From: Bacteroidota bacterium
Lineage (GTDB): Bacteria; Bacteroidota; Bacteroidia; Bacteroidales; VadinHA17
Direction of reading: 5' to 3'
Assembly: GCA_018262715.1 (NCBI GenBank)
Contig: JADFDS010000010.1
Location: 1-64,000 of the forward strand
DNA: 64,000 bases
Shown here: positions 1 through 13,195 of the stretch, piece after piece
How positions within the stretch are numbered: position 1 is the first letter of the stretch
Layout of the letters: each line of letters begins with the position of its first letter
Translations under genes and position numbers: made by a program
Notes under the pieces: generated by a model
What the model saw: only the letters and a program-made list of their open reading frames with translations
What the model was told of the DNA's origin: nothing
Databases searched by the model: none

Positions 1-2854
<2,854 letters not shown>

Positions 2855-2904
2855 TCAATGATATTTAAAAGCTATTTCAGCTTATCTCCGGATAGTCCGG
2901 ATCT

Positions 2905-4409
<1,505 letters not shown>

Positions 4410-7400
4410 TTATTTTATCTTCCTGGCAAACTGGGAGGGTGAAATTCCGAATTGCTTCTGGAAGCTGGTTGCAAAATATGAAGGCGAAGAGAATCCCACC
4501 AGGTATGATATTTCATTTATTCTGAAATTGCCTTCGGCCAGCAGTTCAGCTGCCTTCTTCAGCCTTGTCAGCCTGATGTATTCAACAGAGTTGAGGTCAG
4601 TGAGCGCCTTTACCTTCCTGTAAAGAGTAGAGATGCTTATTCCCATTATCTCTGATATCCTCTCAACACTCAGATCAGTTTCGGCAATATTATCAAGGAG
4701 GGTGGAGTTCAGTTTTTTAAGGAAATCCTCATCAGTCTTGTTCAGGGCAACCGACCTGAAATGTGCCAGCGGAGAATTGATGAAGTTCTGCTGTTCCCGC
4801 CTTCTGTTTTTTATAAGATTAAGTATCTGAGCCATTAAATGCTCAGTGGCGAATGGCTTCTCAATATATGCATCAGCGCCGGAGTCAAGGCCCTCAATCT
4901 TTGCATTGACGTGAACAGAGGCTGTAAGCAGTATGACGGGAATATGGCTGAATTCCATGGTTGATTTGATCTGCCTGCATAGTTCATATCCGTTCATGAC
5001 CGGCATAATCACATCACTTACAACCACTATGATGTTAAACTTCTTCAATGCATTAAGTGCCTCTTCTCCGTTATGGGTCAGAATTACATTGTATTCACCT
5101 GATATTTCTTTGGCAATGAATCTGCCCATCTCAACCTCGTCTTCCACAAGGAGCAGGTTCGGACTGTTTTCTGCAGAGGAGCTGAACACCTCAAATTCTT
5201 CGTTTTCAGCCGGGTTTGCGCCCCCTTCTGTAATTTCTGCCATGCTGATCGTCTCTTCCTGGAATTTCGGCAGCTCCAGAACAAACGAGTTGCGATCGGT
5301 TACTGAAGTGTCAAGATAGAGTCTTCCCTGGTGAAGCTCAGCTATCGAGCGGGCGAGAGACAATCCCAGACCGGTACCCTTTTCACCCGGTTTGTTGGAG
5401 TCAAGCTGGTAAAAAGGTTCAAAGATCTTTTCGGCTAACTCCCCGGGGATCAGGTTGCCGTCATTGGTTACCCGTATTCTCACGGCAGCATCCTTTTCTG
5501 AGCCTGGCTCAAGAAAGATGTCGACTCCGGATCCGGCAAACTTTATCGCGTTAGAGAGCAGATTGCTCAAAATCTTTATTGTTGCTTCCCTGTCAATGGC
5601 AAGCTCGTAATGATTCACCGGCGAATTCAACCTCACAGATATGTTCTTTTCCTCACTGTATGGAAGGAACAGGTTAAATATTGATTCCACAAGTTCGTAC
5701 AGGTCAGTTCTGATGAAATTTAGTTTCAGCATTTCTTTCTCTGTCTTCCTGAAATCAAGCAACTGGTTGGTAAGGCTCAGAAGCCTGTCTGTATTCTTCC
5801 TGATGATCTGCAGATTCTCCTCATGATCATGCAGGTTGTTTGAACCAGCCTTTAAAATTCTGTCGAGGGGACCCTTGATGAGCGTCAATGGAGTCCTGAC
5901 TTCATGGGTAATATTGGTAAAGAAATTGATCTTGGCATTGAGTATTTCCCTTTCCTTCCCGGCCTCAATGGCCTCTATTTTTCTTTGATTTTCAACAGCT
6001 TTTCTTTTCAGATAGGTGATTATCAGATAGTAGCTGATAAGGGTAGCAGTGATCAGGTATAAAATGTAAGCTGGCAAAGAGAGCCACAATGGGGGAGATA
6101 TCCTGATCCTCATACTGGCTTCGGCATTGCTCCATATATTGCCGTTGGTTGATGAAATTACCCTGAATCTGTAATCTCCGGGAGCCAGATTTGCGTAGTT
6201 AACTTTATGGTCGCCTGACATCTCTGCCCAGTCAGGGTCAGCACCTTCCATCATGTACCTGTATTTTGTGAGACCGGGGCTTGTAAAACTTGGTGCCACA
6301 AAACCGATGCTCAGAGATGACTGATTATGCTTCAATGTGATCCTGTCAGTAACAAGAATTGATTTTGAGTCAGGAGAACCGGGCGCGTTACCCTGATACT
6401 CTTTGCCATTGACAAGTAAATCAGTAAAATAGACAGGAGGGCTATATGTACTTTCCTTTATCTCCGCAGGATTGAATGCCAGCAGTCCGTTTACCATCCC
6501 AAAATAGAGCCTGCCATTCTTATCCTGATAGGCGGAATTATAACTGAAGGCATTTCCCAACAGGCCTTCGTTCCTGGTATATACGGTAAATTTACCTGTT
6601 TGAGGATCATAGCGCAGCAATCCCCTGGTGGAAGTTATCCATATCTGACCATGACTGTCCTGAACGACGGCACAGTAAATTGCAAACTCAACGTCCCTGC
6701 CCGGAATGAACCGGGTGATCGCGGCGGTTGCTGCATCAATACAGCTGAAGCCGTTTCCTTCCGTTGTAAACCAGATGTTATGATCCCTGTCCTCATAAAT
6801 TGAGGTAATATAATCATTACTGAGACTGCCGACTTCACCGGAGTCATATGTTACCTGTTCGCAGATCCGTGATTCTGTGTCATATTTGTACAAACCTCTT
6901 CCGTATGTTCCGATCCAGATCATTCCCCTGGTATCCTCATAAAGAGCATGTATGAAAGTGCCGGGAGCTACCGAATCAAGAAGACTGAAGGATGAGGTTT
7001 CCTTGCTGAACCGGTACAATCCTGAGAAGCTACCTGCGTAGACAGTCCCGTCAGCCGTCTTCAGGAAAGTTATGAAAGAGTTCGTTTTCAGACCCAGAGC
7101 GGGATCCCTTACAGTAAAGTGATGCCTGATTTTTCCTGTATTCGGATTCAGTACATAAATGCCGTTGTCATACGTCCCGACCCATAGCTCGTCATTGTCA
7201 ACCAGCAGTCCCTGGGTATTCCGGCTGTTTACCCGTGAGGGGCTGTTCCCGTAGTAAGACGAGAAAATACCGGTTTTCGGATCGAGTCTGATCAGCCCGG
7301 CATCTTCCGTACCTAACCAGATATTGCCGTATGAGTCAGCCCTGATCTCCCTTACCACATTACCGGTAAGTGAACCGGGTAATCCGGTCGGATAGAATTT

Positions 7401-8411
7401 TTCGAAAGGTTTCGTTTCCTGTGGAAGATAATTGACCCCGCCATAAAAAGTCCCCGCCCAGAGGCCTCCTTCCCTGTCGCGGTAGAGGAAACGAATTGCA
7501 TTATTTGAAAGGGAAAAAGGATCGGTCGGTACCATCTGGAGGGCTTTTACAAACCCGGTCTCAAGATTATAGATATGAATTCCTGACTCTGATCCTATCC
7601 AGATGTCTTTATTCTCAAAAAGCTGTATAGTGTTTATTATTATTTCGTTACGTAACCGGTCATCCTCCGGGAACAGGCTGGTTACCTTACCCGAGTTGGG
7701 TTCAAACAGCCTGAGGCCTGCAGTATTTGTTGCAACTACAAATCCGTAATTACCGGCATCCACGATCTCCCCAAGGGTAACTGAGCCGATCTCTCTGTCA
7801 GCAAGGATTCTGAAGCCGGTGAAGTCATCGGTTCTGGCATTGTAATTATAAATACTGCCGTCAGCAGCGGATATCCAGACATCTCCTGCATTTGTCAGTG
7901 TGAATCTATGTGGCAGGAAGTATTCACTTCCCGGATAATAAGTCAGTTGACCGGTTTGCTTGTTGTACTTATAAGTCCCGGTAAAAGTGGCAAGCCAGAT
8001 ATTATTGTTGTTGTCGGCAGCTATGTCTACCACAGCCCTGTCGATACGAAAGTTCTCATCTTCAATCGTGCCGAAGTAGTCATTGTCTGGCAGGTAATAA
8101 CAGATACCCCTGGCTGTCCCGATCCAGATCCAGCCCTCATTGTCCTCGCATAAGGCCAGGATAAAGTTGTCCGGCAGGCTGTTTGATGCTGTCTGGTTAT
8201 GGCTGAAAATCCTGAACTGAGAGCCGTCAAACCGGTTAAGGCCTTCCTTTGTGGCAAACCACATAAAGCCTCTCCGGTCCTGAATGCCTGCCATCACCGT
8301 ATTGTTTGAAAGGCCGCTGTCATTTGTGTAATGCCTGAAGTAGTACGGCCTGCCCTCCGCAAGATTTGAGAATAATGTGAGAATTAAAAATATTATCAGA
8401 AGTCTCTTCAC
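4410..8411 (-). CDS. Hybrid two-component system sensor kinase-response regulator (HTCS)
   Basis: All signalling steps are in one 1333-residue chain. A signal peptide is followed by a double seven-bladed propeller of reg_prop repeats (about 25-660), a Y_Y_Y Ig-like domain (about 690-765), and one membrane segment (about 775-800). The histidine kinase has His836 in ITHEVRTP and an ATPase domain with GTGLGL. The receiver domain carries phospho-acceptor Asp1133 in VSDVIMP, and an AraC-type DNA-binding domain ends the protein. Family members sense oligosaccharides in the periplasm and switch on a nearby polysaccharide locus. Position between the esterase genes and the divergent GH9-esterase gene makes these the likely targets. 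Length and domain order are normal for the family. Confidence 0.95.
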   Translation of the reverse strand: MKRLLIIFLILTLFSNLAEGRPYYFRHYTNDSGLSNNTVMAGIQDRRGFMWFATKEGLNRFDGSQFRIFSHNQTASNSLPDNFILALCEDNEGWIWIGTARGICYYLPDNDYFGTIEDENFRIDRAVVDIAADNNNNIWLATFTGTYKYNKQTGQLTYYPGSEYFLPHRFTLTNAGDVWISAADGSIYNYNARTDDFTGFRILADREIGSVTLGEIVDAGNYGFVVATNTAGLRLFEPNSGKVTSLFPEDDRLRNEIIINTIQLFENKDIWIGSESGIHIYNLETGFVKALQMVPTDPFSLSNNAIRFLYRDREGGLWAGTFYGGVNYLPQETKPFEKFYPTGLPGSLTGNVVREIRADSYGNIWLGTEDAGLIRLDPKTGIFSSYYGNSPSRVNSRNTQGLLVDNDELWVGTYDNGIYVLNPNTGKIRHHFTVRDPALGLKTNSFITFLKTADGTVYAGSFSGLYRFSKETSSFSLLDSVAPGTFIHALYEDTRGMIWIGTYGRGLYKYDTESRICEQVTYDSGEVGSLSNDYITSIYEDRDHNIWFTTEGNGFSCIDAATAAITRFIPGRDVEFAIYCAVVQDSHGQIWITSTRGLLRYDPQTGKFTVYTRNEGLLGNAFSYNSAYQDKNGRLYFGMVNGLLAFNPAEIKESTYSPPVYFTDLLVNGKEYQGNAPGSPDSKSILVTDRITLKHNQSSLSIGFVAPSFTSPGLTKYRYMMEGADPDWAEMSGDHKVNYANLAPGDYRFRVISSTNGNIWSNAEASMRIRISPPLWLSLPAYILYLITATLISYYLIITYLKRKAVENQRKIEAIEAGKEREILNAKINFFTNITHEVRTPLTLIKGPLDRILKAGSNNLHDHEENLQIIRKNTDRLLSLTNQLLDFRKTEKEMLKLNFIRTDLYELVESIFNLFLPYSEEKNISVRLNSPVNHYELAIDREATIKILSNLLSNAIKFAGSGVDIFLEPGSEKDAAVRIRVTNDGNLIPGELAEKIFEPFYQLDSNKPGEKGTGLGLSLARSIAELHQGRLYLDTSVTDRNSFVLELPKFQEETISMAEITEGGANPAENEEFEVFSSSAENSPNLLLVEDEVEMGRFIAKEISGEYNVILTHNGEEALNALKKFNIIVVVSDVIMPVMNGYELCRQIKSTMEFSHIPVILLTASVHVNAKIEGLDSGADAYIEKPFATEHLMAQILNLIKNRRREQQNFINSPLAHFRSVALNKTDEDFLKKLNSTLLDNIAETDLSVERISEIMGISISTLYRKVKALTDLNSVEYIRLTRLKKAAELLAEGNFRINEISYLVGFSSPSYFATSFQKQFGISPSQFARKIK

Positions 8412-8493
8412 CTTTCAACGTTTTACATTTAATACCGGGGTACGAAAGGTAGCAAAAGATCCTTGAATTGGTTCCGGAAAATGGTACCGGCAC

Positions 8494-8523
8494 TTTGCAA
8501 AACATAAAATTTAGTTACATTCG
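8494..8523 (+). promoter_or_regulatory. Predicted promoter for the GH9-carboxylesterase gene
   Basis: TTTG at 8494-8497 and TACATTCG at 8516-8523, spaced by 18 bases, match the Bacteroidota -33/-7 pattern with one mismatch. This would leave a leader of about 140 bases before the ATG at 8666. The 254-base region between the divergent sensor and enzyme genes should also contain the regulator's binding site, which I could not identify. Confidence 0.4.
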
Positions 8524-8665
8524 CATGCTTGCTTGAGACGCAACAGAAACTGACGCTCTTTGTTAGATTAATGAATATCAGTGTGTTAATACTTGGTGCT
8601 GGTTGGCTGGGTCGATATCGAGTGAAGTCCTTTTTTAAACCTTTGTCTGATCATGATTTAATAAT

Positions 8666-11600
8666 ATGAAAAGAATATTAATCACATCATTCTTTGTGCT
8701 CCTGGCAGCAGTCTTCAATTATGCATCCGGTCAGGATCTGAAACTCAATAATCTCGAGTATTTTGAGACACAGGGCGTCAATATCCTTGTCTACAGTAAC
8801 CAGTTTACCGGAGGTTTCAACGATGAGAAGAACGCCGGAATAGAACTGATTCATCATGGTGTCAGGACAGTACAGGGTGGTGCCGTGAGACTTTCCTCCA
8901 CCCCGGAACAGTGGGATCTTGTGCCTGCAATGCCGTCGCGGAAGGTAGACCCTTCATCAAAAACAATTGAGGTTGCATTGAGGTATGACGATTACGATTT
9001 TGATTCACGGGTTGTTGTAACCGCCCGGGGCAGGGGTGTTGAGATTTCTGTTTACCTTGATAAGCCTGTTCCCGCATCGCTTGCCGGTAGTGCAGGGTTC
9101 AATCTCGAGTTTCTTCCCTCTCAATACTGGAATAAGGCCTATCTGTCTGACGGGCGCTACAACCGTTTTCCCCGGTATGTGGCAGGTAACAGTGTCACGA
9201 AGCCCAACAGCCAGAAAACCAGACAGTTCAGGGGGTATGTTACCTCTGACGACAGGGGAACAGGCAGATTTATTGATCCCCTGCCACTCGAAACCGGCCG
9301 CACTTTTATCCTCGCTCCGGATGATCCCGAACGGCTGGTAAAGATCACCTCTCCTGATGCAGACCTGATGCTTTTCGACGGTCGTGTGCTCGCTCAAAAC
9401 GGCTGGTTCGTCATACGCAGCCTGCTTCCGGCAGGAAAAACCGGCAAAGTACTGACCTGGACTGTGGAGCCAAATGCAATTAAAGGCTGGATAAGAGAGC
9501 CAAACATAGGCTTCTCGCAGGTGGGCTACCTTCCGTCTCAGCCCAAAGTATCGGTCATTGAACTCGACAAGAAAGACAAACCGCAGGCAAAAGCATCCGT
9601 ATATAAGGTTGGCGAAGACGGAAGTGCTGTAAAAGTATTCAGTGGTAAAATCGCCCCCTGGGGCGACTATTTCAAGTACCACTATGTGAAATTCGATTTT
9701 TCTGCAGTCACAACCCCTGGTATATACTACATCCAGTATGGTAAATTCAGGACTAATAACTTCCTGATTGAGGAGGGCGTTTACGACAGGATTACCGATG
9801 CCACATCCGATGTATGGATCCCGATACACATGAATCACATGTTCGTTAACGAGGCTTACAGGGTGTGGCATGGTGAGCCTTTCAGGGAAGGCTATCTCCA
9901 GGCTCCGCCAAACACGGATCACTTTGACCTGCATTGGCAGGGCCCGACAACCGATACCAGGTTCAAGCCGCTGGAACTGATTCCCGGATTGAACACCGGA
10001 GGCTTCTTCGATGCGGGCGATTTTGATATCGAGACAGGATCGAACATAATGGTGGTGCAGAATTTTGTAAGAACATGGGAGTATTTCAAACCCTTCCGCG
10101 ATCAGACTTTTGTTGATCAGAAGCAGCGGTACGTGGATCTTCACCGCCCCGACGGGACACCGGATATATTGCAGTTCATAGAGCATGGGACACTGAACCT
10201 GGTGGCGCAGGCAGAGATTATCGGCCATATGGCGCAGACGCTCTCGAACGCTGTTCTCGACAATTACCATCATCTGGGTGACGCAGCCTCAATCACTGAC
10301 GGCCTGCCCTATAATCCTGACCTGGGCCCGCATGAAATAGCCGCTGACGGCCGTTCGAGCGGAGTCAGGGATGACATGTGGGCATTTACAAGCCGCAATC
10401 CCGGTCTGGACCTGTCGGCTGCGACGATGTTTGCCGCAGCAAGCCGGGCATTGAAGGGATACAACGACGACCTCTCGGAGAGAGCCCTCCGGCAGTCAAA
10501 AAGACTTCTTGAGGAGGCGACGGTACTGATTGCCAACAGGCCTCAGGAGAACCGCACATGGGGAGGTGGTCCGGCAAATCTTGGTTCCTATCTTGAGTTG
10601 TTCATCTCAACAGGAGACGAGCAGTACAGGGAAAAATTCCTGGAAATTATATGGCCTTCGCTTGACCGTTTTGTCAGCTTCAGCCTCCTGACAGCCCTGG
10701 ATGCCTTACCTTATATGGATGCAGCCTACAGGGAGAAGCTCCGCCCCTATGTTGTAAAGTACAGGGAATACATCGAGAAGCTTGAAAGGGATAACCCTTA
10801 CGGGGTCCCTATTGGCCTTGGCAACTGGGCAGGCGGGGGAGAACTGCTGAATTTCGGCACTACAGTTTGCTTTGCCAGTAAATATTTCCCTGATATTATT
10901 GAAGCTGACCACGCATTCAAGACCACCAACTGGCTCTTTGGCTGCCATCCGTATCACAATTATTCATTCGTTGCAGCAGTGGGCGCCGCCCGTCCGAAGG
11001 CAGTCTTTTACGGCAACAACAGGGCTGATTTCTCTTTCATTCCGGGCAATGTTGCCCCGGGGGTACTATTCAGAAAGCCTGACCACTTTGAAAATTATGA
11101 CGACTGGCCATTCCTCTGGGGACAAAATGAGGGGACCATTGCAGGCAATACAAGTTACCTGATATTCGGATCAGTGTTCAGGGATCTGGTAAAAGAAAAC
11201 CAGAACCCGGTTGTTAAGACCACCTCAGGTACTGTTTCCGGCAGTATTGAGGACGGAATATATTCTTTTAAGGGAATCCCCTACGCCCGGGCTGAGAGGT
11301 TCATGCCTCCACAGGAACCTGAGGCCTGGGACGGAGTTCTTGAATGCAACGAATTCGGACCCGTCGCCAAACAGATAGTAGCCTGGATTGCAGATTCCGT
11401 GACGGATGAGAAAAACCTGTTCAGTGTGAATGTCTGGACGCAGGGATTAACGGATGGCAGAAAGAGGCCGGTAATGATCTGGTTGCACGGAGGAGGTTTT
11501 CATGTTGGCAGCAGCAATGATCCAATGACATATGGGAAAGCTCTGGCTAAAAAAGGGGATGTGGTTGTGGTGTCCCTGAATCACCGGTTGAATATCCTTG

Positions 11601-12676
11601 GATTTCTTGATTTATCGGCATGCGGTGAAAAATATGCTCAATCGGCAAATGCCGGCATGCTCGATATTGTAAAAGCCTTGGAGTGGGTTCGGAGAAACAT
11701 TGAGAACTTTGGAGGCAACCCTTACGATATAACCATTTTAGGTGAATCCGGAGGCGGCGGGAAAGTCGGCACCCTGATGTGCATGCCGGCGGCACAGGGT
11801 TTGTTTAACAAGGCAATTATTCAGAGCGGAACTCTGTTGAATGTTATGACAAAAGAGCAATCACAGGCCCTGGGTTTAGCCGTGCTTAAAAACCTGGGAC
11901 TTACGCCTGATGATACGGAGAAACTGGATACAATCCCTTACCTGGATCTTGTAAAGGCGGGGAATGATGCTATCGCTGAGACTTATGGTCCAAGGACACC
12001 CGGCACCCCGCAAATGTTTGGTTTTGTACCTTCTGCAGACGGCATTGTACTGCTGCAGCAACCTTTCAGTCCCGGATTTGCAGAAATATCAAAGGATATC
12101 CCTCTGATGATCGGTACCACGCTCAATGAATTAATGAGAACATTCTATGCCGAGAAAGATCTGACAATGGAACAGGCCGGGGAGCGGCTTGAAAGGGAGT
12201 ACGGTGACCGGACCAATGAGTACATTGAGCTGTTCGCCAAAGCTTACCCTGATTTCACGCCTCAGGATCTTATCTCTGTTGACAAAACCTTCAGACCTTA
12301 TACAATCAGGGCTGCTGATGCAAGGGCCAGGCAGTCAGACGCTCCGCTGTATGTCTATTTTCTGGCCTGGAAAAGTCAGGTGGATAATGCATCAAAAGGG
12401 TCCTTTCACGGCCTGGACATACCTCTGGCGTTTTACAATGTTGACCTGAGACCTGACTGGACGGGTGAATCGGAGGAAGCATGGATACTGGCCGATAAGA
12501 TGAGCGCTGCATGGCTGAATTTTGCAAAGACCGGTAATCCTGATGCACCTGGCAAGCTTCCAGCGTGGGAACCTTATACCGCAGAAAATGGTGCAACAAT
12601 GTATTTTGACAATGAGTGCAGGGTTGTACATAACCATGACAGGGCTCTGATGAATTTCATTCAGCCTGGTGATTAG
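8666..12676 (+). CDS. Secreted fusion of a GH9-type glycosidase and a type-B carboxylesterase
   Basis: This 1336-residue protein has a signal peptide (about 1-22). An N-terminal beta-rich region leads to a cellulase N-terminal Ig domain (about 280-375) and a GH9 (alpha/alpha)6 barrel (about 385-845). The paired GH9 aspartates appear as Asp449 and Asp452 in DAGDF, and the general acid as Glu822 in NEGTIAGN. From about 855 to the end is a carboxylesterase: HGGGF oxyanion loop, Ser1028 in GESGGGG (usual GESAGG), Glu1155 in NELM, and His1248 in FHGLDIP. Both halves look catalytically complete. GH9 enzymes cut beta-glucan-type backbones; the esterase would remove acyl groups, so one secreted chain could do both steps. 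It is divergent from the hybrid sensor and probably controlled by it. The exact substrate is unknown. Confidence 0.88.
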   Translation: MKRILITSFFVLLAAVFNYASGQDLKLNNLEYFETQGVNILVYSNQFTGGFNDEKNAGIELIHHGVRTVQGGAVRLSSTPEQWDLVPAMPSRKVDPSSKTIEVALRYDDYDFDSRVVVTARGRGVEISVYLDKPVPASLAGSAGFNLEFLPSQYWNKAYLSDGRYNRFPRYVAGNSVTKPNSQKTRQFRGYVTSDDRGTGRFIDPLPLETGRTFILAPDDPERLVKITSPDADLMLFDGRVLAQNGWFVIRSLLPAGKTGKVLTWTVEPNAIKGWIREPNIGFSQVGYLPSQPKVSVIELDKKDKPQAKASVYKVGEDGSAVKVFSGKIAPWGDYFKYHYVKFDFSAVTTPGIYYIQYGKFRTNNFLIEEGVYDRITDATSDVWIPIHMNHMFVNEAYRVWHGEPFREGYLQAPPNTDHFDLHWQGPTTDTRFKPLELIPGLNTGGFFDAGDFDIETGSNIMVVQNFVRTWEYFKPFRDQTFVDQKQRYVDLHRPDGTPDILQFIEHGTLNLVAQAEIIGHMAQTLSNAVLDNYHHLGDAASITDGLPYNPDLGPHEIAADGRSSGVRDDMWAFTSRNPGLDLSAATMFAAASRALKGYNDDLSERALRQSKRLLEEATVLIANRPQENRTWGGGPANLGSYLELFISTGDEQYREKFLEIIWPSLDRFVSFSLLTALDALPYMDAAYREKLRPYVVKYREYIEKLERDNPYGVPIGLGNWAGGGELLNFGTTVCFASKYFPDIIEADHAFKTTNWLFGCHPYHNYSFVAAVGAARPKAVFYGNNRADFSFIPGNVAPGVLFRKPDHFENYDDWPFLWGQNEGTIAGNTSYLIFGSVFRDLVKENQNPVVKTTSGTVSGSIEDGIYSFKGIPYARAERFMPPQEPEAWDGVLECNEFGPVAKQIVAWIADSVTDEKNLFSVNVWTQGLTDGRKRPVMIWLHGGGFHVGSSNDPMTYGKALAKKGDVVVVSLNHRLNILGFLDLSACGEKYAQSANAGMLDIVKALEWVRRNIENFGGNPYDITILGESGGGGKVGTLMCMPAAQGLFNKAIIQSGTLLNVMTKEQSQALGLAVLKNLGLTPDDTEKLDTIPYLDLVKAGNDAIAETYGPRTPGTPQMFGFVPSADGIVLLQQPFSPGFAEISKDIPLMIGTTLNELMRTFYAEKDLTMEQAGERLEREYGDRTNEYIELFAKAYPDFTPQDLISVDKTFRPYTIRAADARARQSDAPLYVYFLAWKSQVDNASKGSFHGLDIPLAFYNVDLRPDWTGESEEAWILADKMSAAWLNFAKTGNPDAPGKLPAWEPYTAENGATMYFDNECRVVHNHDRALMNFIQPGD

Positions 12677-12751
12677 AGCCCGGATAAGGCTCCGCATGGT
12701 CTTTTTTGCTTTCCCGTGACCCTTTTGAAATCAAGCTTTTAACGGGTTCCG

Positions 12752-12778: not shown

Positions 12779-12799
12779 GCCTGTTTTTTGTTTGATCAG

Positions 12800-13195
12800 T
12801 GGAGCTGGCGGGAGTCGAACCCGCGTCCAGGCAAGGCAGCCATATGCTTTCTACATGCTTATCCTGCCTTGTTTGTCGGGGGTGACCAGGTGGCAGGCAT
12901 CCGAGTCAGTCCTTATCTCCTGTTATTTCACCGTCAGGCCGGAGAAACCATCGGGCTATCCCTGAGTTGCGTGCGCTTCCTTATCGGGTTGGTACAGGGC
13001 CTCACCGCCCGGGAAACGTCTCGTCCCAACACCTTGTGCCGGGATTAAGCATAATCCGCCAGTCGGCAGGTTACGCAGCAAGAGCGTAGTTAGACTCGCC
13101 AGTTGTTGTTTTGAGACACAAGTTATAGAGATGCGCCCCCACACTCTGCATGCTTACATACCACCGCGGCTTGCTGTCAAAACCAGGTCAGCCCC
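12800..13195 (-). ncRNA. ssrA: Transfer-messenger RNA (tmRNA)
   Basis: The 5' end GGGGCTG pairs with CAGCTCC at the 3' end to form the tRNA-like acceptor stem, and a T-arm with GGTTCGACTCC precedes it. The terminal CCA is not encoded. The internal reading frame gives the tag GESNYALAA followed by TAA (around 13075-13105), ending in the ALAA degradation signal typical of trans-translation. tmRNA rescues stalled ribosomes and marks the nascent protein for proteolysis. About 396 bases is normal length. A strong promoter and terminator flank it. Confidence 0.96.

Follow-up and report, generated by a model that had tools for sequence, protein, structure and literature searches.

Why Bacteroidota fuse esterases to other enzymes acting on the plant cell wall has been called unclear (PMC8040265, PMC8417218), and this question is raised anew by a gene in a 64,000-nucleotide stretch of DNA (hereafter the window; positions 1–64,000 of contig JADFDS010000010.1, assembly GCA_018262715.1) from a Bacteroidota bacterium of the VadinHA17 lineage (Bacteroidales). 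Esterase-glycosidase and esterase-esterase fusions are known from xylan loci of Bacteroidota and comprise combinations of carbohydrate esterase (CE) and glycoside hydrolase (GH) families (CE15-GH8, CE6-CE1, CE1-CE1) as well as GH43 with feruloyl esterase (FAE) (PMC8417218, PMC7110780, PMC8040265; here and below, statements on published systems refer to the parts of the papers covered). The gene considered here (8666–12676, + strand) joins a GH9-type glycosidase to a type-B carboxylesterase. The fusion is real and rare. Comparisons centred on the window's own genome (G000) and three relatives of the same genus, G001 (locus also designated L026, UBA5235), G002 (locus L016) and G014 (locus L018).

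Architecture of the fused gene

The frame runs from an ATG to a stop codon with zero internal stops and is composed as follows.

8666–12676, + strand: fused gene, 1336 amino acids (aa), with signal peptide, N-terminal domain, CelD_N, GH9 and type-B carboxylesterase (open frame and Pfam)
8666–8731, + strand: signal peptide of signal peptidase I (SPase I) type, residues 1–22, cleavage between NYASG and Q (read from the sequence by eye)
8735–9490, + strand: N-terminal beta-rich domain, residues 24–275 (no Pfam family; strands in the model, homologue matches)
9497–9745, + strand: CelD_N Ig-like domain, residues 278–360 (Pfam, E 3.4e-10)
9995–11158, + strand: GH9 catalytic domain, residues 444–831 (Pfam Glyco_hydro_9, fold, catalytic residues)
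10010–10012, + strand: D449, GH9 catalytic residue
10019–10021, + strand: D452, GH9 catalytic residue
11129–11131, + strand: E822, GH9 catalytic residue
11192–11209, + strand: fusion junction, residues 843–848 (K-ENQNP), placed by comparison with the split genes of G002
11204–12631, + strand: type-B carboxylesterase domain, residues 847–1322 (Pfam COesterase, E 1.6e-82, fold, triad)
11747–11749, + strand: S1028, esterase triad
12128–12130, + strand: E1155, esterase triad
12407–12409, + strand: H1248, esterase triad

The first-pass annotation had placed both enzymes in one chain and named these six residues; the single frame with its Pfam matches to CelD_N, Glyco_hydro_9 and COesterase bears out the former, and the residue numbering is correct, with all six conserved in the alignments. 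Read by eye, the N-terminus displays a hydrophobic stretch and an ASG-Q cleavage site without a lipobox, which suggests that the fused chain is secreted. No Pfam match was obtained for residues 24–275; this region is nevertheless common to GH9 homologues across Bacteroidota, matches starting within residues 1–23 in the best 80 of 500 loci.

Members of GH9 employ a DxxD motif and a C-terminal acid Glu in catalysis. The match to Glyco_hydro_9 (PF00759) is weak and marginal (29.3 bits, cut-off 27.7; E 7.2e-7). D449, D452 and E822 are, however, invariant in a 19-sequence alignment with identities down to 35 %, and among the GH9 homologues of the best 80 loci DAGD occurs in 80/80 and W-G-(Q/E)-N-E in 78/80. 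Structure models were obtained for residues 24–843 (predicted local distance difference test, pLDDT, 69) and 276–1336 (pLDDT 73; predicted template modelling score, pTM, 0.53). With the former, Foldseek retrieved GH9 structures, headed by BoGH9A (6dht, E 9.6e-17), at identities of just 13–19 % for matches with E <0.001, and structural comparison (VIA) yielded a Z score of 21.3 over 438 residues at a root-mean-square deviation of 4.6; the fold found is CelD_N followed by an (alpha/alpha) barrel. The fold matches span model residues 255–820 and thus do not bear on the fold of the N-terminal domain.

In the esterase half, every one of the 12 alignment rows with an esterase retains S1028, E1155 and H1248, and an HGGGF oxyanion stretch can be read. 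The COesterase (PF00135) domain was also matched by phmmer (5a2g, E 1.6e-92), and the fold search with the 276–1336 model led to type-B esterases of the alpha/beta-hydrolase fold (7x8l, E 1.3e-36). Structure prediction, proposed at the outset as a check, thus returned the expected fold for each half. It is very improbable that either half is an inactive module for binding or scaffolding: the GH9 score barely above its cut-off and the unmodelled loop holding E822 (pLDDT <50 in both models) could be taken that way, but the examined homologues retain the catalytic residues of GH9 and esterase alike, and the ratio of nonsynonymous to synonymous substitution rates (dN/dS) is low (see below). With two catalytic domains, conserved residues and one uninterrupted, maintained frame, the product is predicted to be a multicatalytic carbohydrate-active enzyme (CAZyme).

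Maintenance and rarity of the fusion

The same 1336-aa fusion is present in the separate assembly of G001 (85 % identity of the proteins, 81 % of the DNA), and the junction is equally long in both. Pairwise dN/dS between the two fused genes amounts to 0.074 (dS 0.92) for CelD_N-GH9 and 0.116 (dS 0.85) for the esterase; since these values are low at a dS of about 0.9, both halves are under purifying selection and thus maintained. An assembly artefact or frameshift is ruled out by the shared junction in an independent genome at 81 % DNA identity together with the low dN/dS. The dS of the fused genes exceeds that of two flanking genes (0.59 and 0.69) in the same genome pair.

Rarity was assessed with a 61-residue query across the junction in samples of 22 genus, 393 order and 395 phylum genomes. 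The query was read through in 2 of the 22 genus genomes, and in the order and phylum samples only in the window's own (1/393, E 1e-9; 1/395, E 1e-12). Fourteen other order genomes match one side of the junction, some running slightly past it through a stop. A query with the esterase found 29 places in 22/393 order genomes, with four candidates scored in many genomes, and a frame >1000 aa only at the window's. Among the best 80 of 500 loci of relatives, one is fused (L026), the other 79 being GH9 frames of 838–894 aa. The architecture had been supposed to be uncommon, and these counts agree. A widespread occurrence is not supported by the junction and esterase queries, which a diverged junction, another domain order or genomes outside the samples may escape. 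No GH9-type-B esterase fusion was found in published work (open-access full text, most papers judged from listings, with the term 'GH9' also catching GH95).

Origin of the fusion

In G002, GH9 and esterase are adjacent separate genes, GH9 first. The GH9 gene ends with FKDLVK and a stop, its last residue matching K843 of the fusion, and is followed by 116 bp and the esterase gene, the product of which begins with MKKSTCFVFLCLITAGYVFTGC, by eye a lipoprotein-type signal, and aligns in its mature part from fusion residue N845 onwards. Relative to this arrangement, the fusion is devoid of the GH9 stop, the 116-bp gap and 28 codons including the lipoprotein-type signal. Other GH9 homologues mostly end near FKNLVK. 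Unfused esterase homologues with 63–77 % identity occur in G280, G413, G416, G301 and G177 of the same order, and lipobox-like N-termini were recognized by eye on all ten unfused homologues inspected for this (these five, G002, L052, L066, L021 and L023). In L052 and L066 the unfused neighbours stand in reverse order, the esterase upstream of the GH9 gene.

A third state is found in G014, where a GH9-only gene ends in about nine codons matching the last codons of the esterase. The corresponding feature of the window is:

12640–12680, + strand: esterase 3' end, stop plus 4 bases, matched by the G014 scar (L018:11129–11169, 85 %, E 1e-6)

Apparently, G014 once had the esterase and lost it by a deletion whose ends lie in short stretches of similar sequence (CAGGG..CTG), one in each gene; the parent of the scar may have been the fused or the split form. 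The GH9 tree joins G000 with G014 (100/98), the placement of G001 and G002 being unresolved and the bootstrap not settled. For a flanking gene encoding a protein of 1186 aa, the relative nearest to the window is G001 by protein (97 %, against 93 % for G014 and 91 % for G002), and by DNA G001 and G014 are equal (91.0 % each). Members of the genus may have exchanged this DNA by transfer or recombination.

In G288, an 878-aa chain (L168:4846–7482) carries an esterase homologue (50 %) fused to a CE1-type domain. As this fusion is independent of that with GH9, the esterase family has been fused at least twice, with different partners. It bears on the view that the present fusion is a near-neutral accident, in which two adjacent genes were joined through a small deletion and their products go on working as they did, uncoupled. 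This view is doubtful. The confinement of the fusion to 2/22 genus genomes, the esterase loss with scar in G014 and the lack of intramolecular synergy reported for several CE fusions (PMC8417218) would suit it, but the fused frame persisted to a dS of about 0.9, its two halves being under purifying selection, the fusion switches the export signal of the esterase from lipoprotein-type to soluble, and the same esterase family was captured separately in G288. Low dN/dS at a dS near 0.9 speaks against a pure accident; it does not prove that GH9 and esterase are coupled.

Genomic context

The window starts at base 1 of its contig, so that the locus is cut on that side. Upstream of the fusion it comprises:

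1–1746, − strand: CE1-type esterase frame with two domains, truncated at the start of the contig; its start codon probably lies near 1611
1658–2845, − strand: CE1-type esterase (Pfam PF00756)
2905–4170, − strand: CE1-type esterase (Pfam PF00756)
4410–8411, − strand: hybrid two-component regulator (Pfam Reg_prop, Y_Y_Y, HisKA, HATPase, receiver and AraC-type helix-turn-helix domains)
8412–8665: intergenic stretch between regulator and fusion, in which homology to G014 breaks at 8590/8634

A hybrid two-component regulator next to several CE1 enzymes, as in the esterase-rich arabinoxylan polysaccharide utilization locus (PUL), is therewith present in the window. SusC/SusD, GH43 and CE6 were not found in the part of the locus held by the window (cut at the contig start) and are present in the matching locus of G002. 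The latter adds genes for SusC, SusD, GH51, GH43, a second GH9, CE6 and more CE1 (Pfam, the rest by blastp); its second GH9 (L016:3165–5777, − strand) is divergent, with 56–57 % identity. None of GH10, GH11, GH8, GH5 and GH30 was detected among the G002 locus genes scanned, the contig ending inside the esterase gene that follows GH9 and four frames being unscanned. The G002 gene set looks like one for acylated arabinoxylan, and the locus resembles published esterase-rich arabinoxylan PULs.

These surroundings bear on the substrate originally proposed. Of that interpretation, the two domains, their residues and the rarity of the architecture stand; a glucan- or mannan-like target fits less well with the CE1 frames and regulator of the window and with the SusC/SusD, GH51, GH43, CE6 and CE1 genes of G002. 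That the target is an ester-decorated glucan or mannan could be argued from the GH9 fold and its solved relatives, but the esterases of CE1 and CE6 stand with GH43 and GH51, and neither the part of the locus in the window nor the scanned G002 genes included a mannan- or pectin-type family; this target is therefore very unlikely. A glucan role of the GH9 domain itself may apply, because its solved relatives include glucanases, a xyloglucanase, a xanthanase and exo-glucosaminidases. No second GH9 of the same clade was found by searching the window's own genome, only a CelD_N-level match.

Between regulator and GH9, G002 and G014 hold two genes, coding for a 244-aa protein and for a GH43 and ricin-B lectin protein. 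Both are absent from the window; in G001, the end of the GH43 gene is still present where the contig starts. The 244-aa neighbour has no Pfam match over the cut-off and no match in the Protein Data Bank (PDB). A secreted-looking protein of 242–244 aa (L018:6330–7064, L016:18607–19341) travels with the GH43 and ricin-B lectin gene and the GH9 gene in 5/80 loci; outside G002 and G014 the set recurs, in varying order, in L052, L054 and L088 (Spirosoma).

On the other side, 122 bp in G000 and 107 bp in G001 separate the fusion from the gene for transfer-messenger RNA (tmRNA; window 12799–13195, − strand). Six other genus genomes (G006, G007, G010, G018, G019, G020) are homologous to the window only as far as the tmRNA 3' end or up to ~70 bp beyond it, and they lack the locus (window 1–12727) in the 1–11 kb covered past the tmRNA; the fusion locus therefore looks to occupy a variable site beside ssrA. 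Two versions of the tmRNA-encoded tag occur, GESNYALAA (window, G001, G010) and GENNYALAA (G006, G018, G019, G020).

Proposed role

The reading favoured here, with a probability of roughly 0.55, is that of a recently formed, natural two-enzyme protein of a complex-arabinoxylan utilization locus, which would be located in the periplasm, deacylating and cutting complex arabinoxylan. The periplasmic location is proposed because of the SPase I-type signal without lipobox (by eye), arabinoxylan as substrate because of the locus content, and from the locus we also infer a specificity of GH9 for the arabinoxylan backbone. The esterase homologue within a run of CE1 genes in G177 and the GH9 gene upregulated on complex arabinoxylan in the PUL of Bacteroides cellulosilyticus (PMC7815789) count in favour as well. 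The chain would be exported once, via the GH9 signal peptide. Its periplasmic substrates would be oligosaccharides taken up through SusC/D: the esterase would strip the xylan chain of acetyl or feruloyl groups, and GH9 would cleave the beta-1,4 backbone next to the site thus exposed. Fusion would fix a 1:1 ratio of the two enzymes and would shift the esterase from the membrane, where it would reside as lipoprotein, to the soluble phase alongside its partner.

Several observations weigh against this proposal. At a pTM of 0.53, the placement of the GH9 relative to the esterase domain is not usable in the 276–1336 model, and the E822 loop is of low confidence in both models. In G014 the esterase was lost and GH9 stayed conserved, so the link between the two is dispensable. 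Judged by the reference enzymes used, only one of the five close unfused esterase homologues from the order (63–77 %) lies among CE1 genes, namely that of G177 (63 %), which sits inside a run of them. The GH9 clade, with 75–91 % identity (best segments) in the best 80 of 500 loci, extends over many Bacteroidota families. A xylan-type enzyme lies within 8 kb in 25 of these 80 loci, a raw count without background rate, and none was found in the other 55, some of which are cut by contig ends (blastp against reference enzymes). When 93 genes directly adjoining GH9 in the latter group were scanned with Pfam, leaving out the fused L026 and 3/96 frames touching contig ends, 120 families were matched; judged by the 25 most frequent, the leading ones are unrelated, among them epimerase (6/93), B12-binding, methylmalonyl-CoA mutase and lipid A acyltransferase. 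The GH9 clade is therefore not bound to xylan loci, and a strict GH9-xylan linkage is weakened by these two results. The same 93 neighbours include three BD-FAE, two COesterase and single GH95, GH115, GH92 and GHL10 matches. Four records of the clade are on plasmids, including Pontibacter akesuensis Paks1 (L171) and Hymenobacter volaticus (L172); on Paks1, typed as mobilizable, GH9 adjoins three GH43 genes and an alpha/beta hydrolase.

Among the rival explanations, the main one, ahead of the neutral fusion, takes GH9 as a glucanase (for cellulose, mixed-linkage glucan or xyloglucan) loosening the glucan around arabinoxylan, with the esterase deacylating xylan: two substrates in one wall. This is possible, if distinctly less probable than an action of both halves on arabinoxylan. 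The solved GH9 relatives, which likewise weigh against the favoured reading, are mostly glucanases, the top Foldseek match being BoGH9A (xyloglucan), and a cellulose-targeting role was proposed for the GH9 gene of a Bacteroides cellulosilyticus locus (PMC7815789). The low identity to the matched structures counts against it, as does the G002 locus, where two GH9 stand without GH10, GH11, GH8, GH5 or GH30 among the genes scanned in an incompletely known locus.

A more far-reaching version of the arabinoxylan reading can be offered only tentatively and is on balance unlikely: the GH9 half would represent a spreading clade cutting acylated arabinoxylan, and the esterase an overlooked family of xylan esterases, repeatedly captured by fusion (GH9 here, CE1 in G288). 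To our knowledge, cutting of acylated arabinoxylan is not established for GH9. Under this far-reaching version, the fused, split and esterase-lost forms in one genus would amount to a natural experiment on the reasons for joining esterases with backbone enzymes. As the pair exists in all three states in close relatives, the effect of fusion on rate, localization and stoichiometry is measurable on near-identical domains. The pair also draws attention to the GH9 clade and the family of its type-B esterase as uncharacterized parts of arabinoxylan use. Should the GH9 half be an ordinary glucanase, the finding shrinks to one more domain combination.

Comparison with known systems

The GH9 half shares CelD_N, the (alpha/alpha) barrel and the Asp/Asp/Glu residues with BoGH9A (6dht), CelD (1clc), the multi-modular xanthanase (6fhj/6fhn) and exo-glucosaminidases (5dgq, 6gdt), at Foldseek E values down to 9.6e-17 and a Z score of about 21; it differs from them in sequence (13–19 % identity), in an extra 250-aa N-terminal domain and in the attached esterase. 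The esterase half corresponds in fold (E down to 1.3e-36, 32–36 % identity), Ser-Glu-His triad and HGGG stretch to the C. hathewayi esterase (5a2g), E93 (7x8l), Est55 (2ogt) and the pNB esterase (1qe3), which, in contrast to the fusion, are single esterases. These enzymes are known, by entry title or in general, from small esters or polyesters. A backbone glycosidase and an esterase in one chain, as here, are likewise combined in the bifunctional xylanase/feruloyl esterase (NCBIfam NF041944), presumably Xyn10D-Fae1A with its GH10-CE1 make-up, albeit from other families; in the window, matches to this profile are confined to the CE1 genes next to the fusion and stay under the cut-off.

Among loci, the esterase-genes-enriched (EGE) arabinoxylan PUL of colonic Bacteroides intestinalis and B. 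cellulosilyticus has the hybrid two-component regulator and several CE1 in common with the window's locus, and SusC/D, several GH43 and CE6 with the matching locus of G002 (PMC7815789). That of B. cellulosilyticus includes a GH9 gene upregulated on complex arabinoxylan (PMC7815789), which may or may not belong to the clade of the fusion's GH9. The B. intestinalis locus differs in also having GH3, and a type-B esterase or GH9 fusion does not appear in the parts of the paper covered (PMC7815789). Multicatalytic esterases of Bacteroidota xylan loci are likewise represented by BoCE6-CE1 and FjCE6-CE1 (PMC7110780) and by the CE1-CE1 enzyme DmCE1B (PMC8040265); as described in the covered parts, their chains, unlike the fusion, contain neither a glycoside hydrolase nor a type-B carboxylesterase. 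The two-domain CE1 frame at the contig start parallels these CE1-CE1 and CE6-CE1 esterases. In BeCE15A-Rex8A of Bacteroides eggerthii (CE15-GH8), both halves belong to other families and the esterase comes first, but like the fusion it is a rare protein of a Bacteroidota xylan locus, in which a very short linker connects an esterase with a glycoside hydrolase (PMC8417218).

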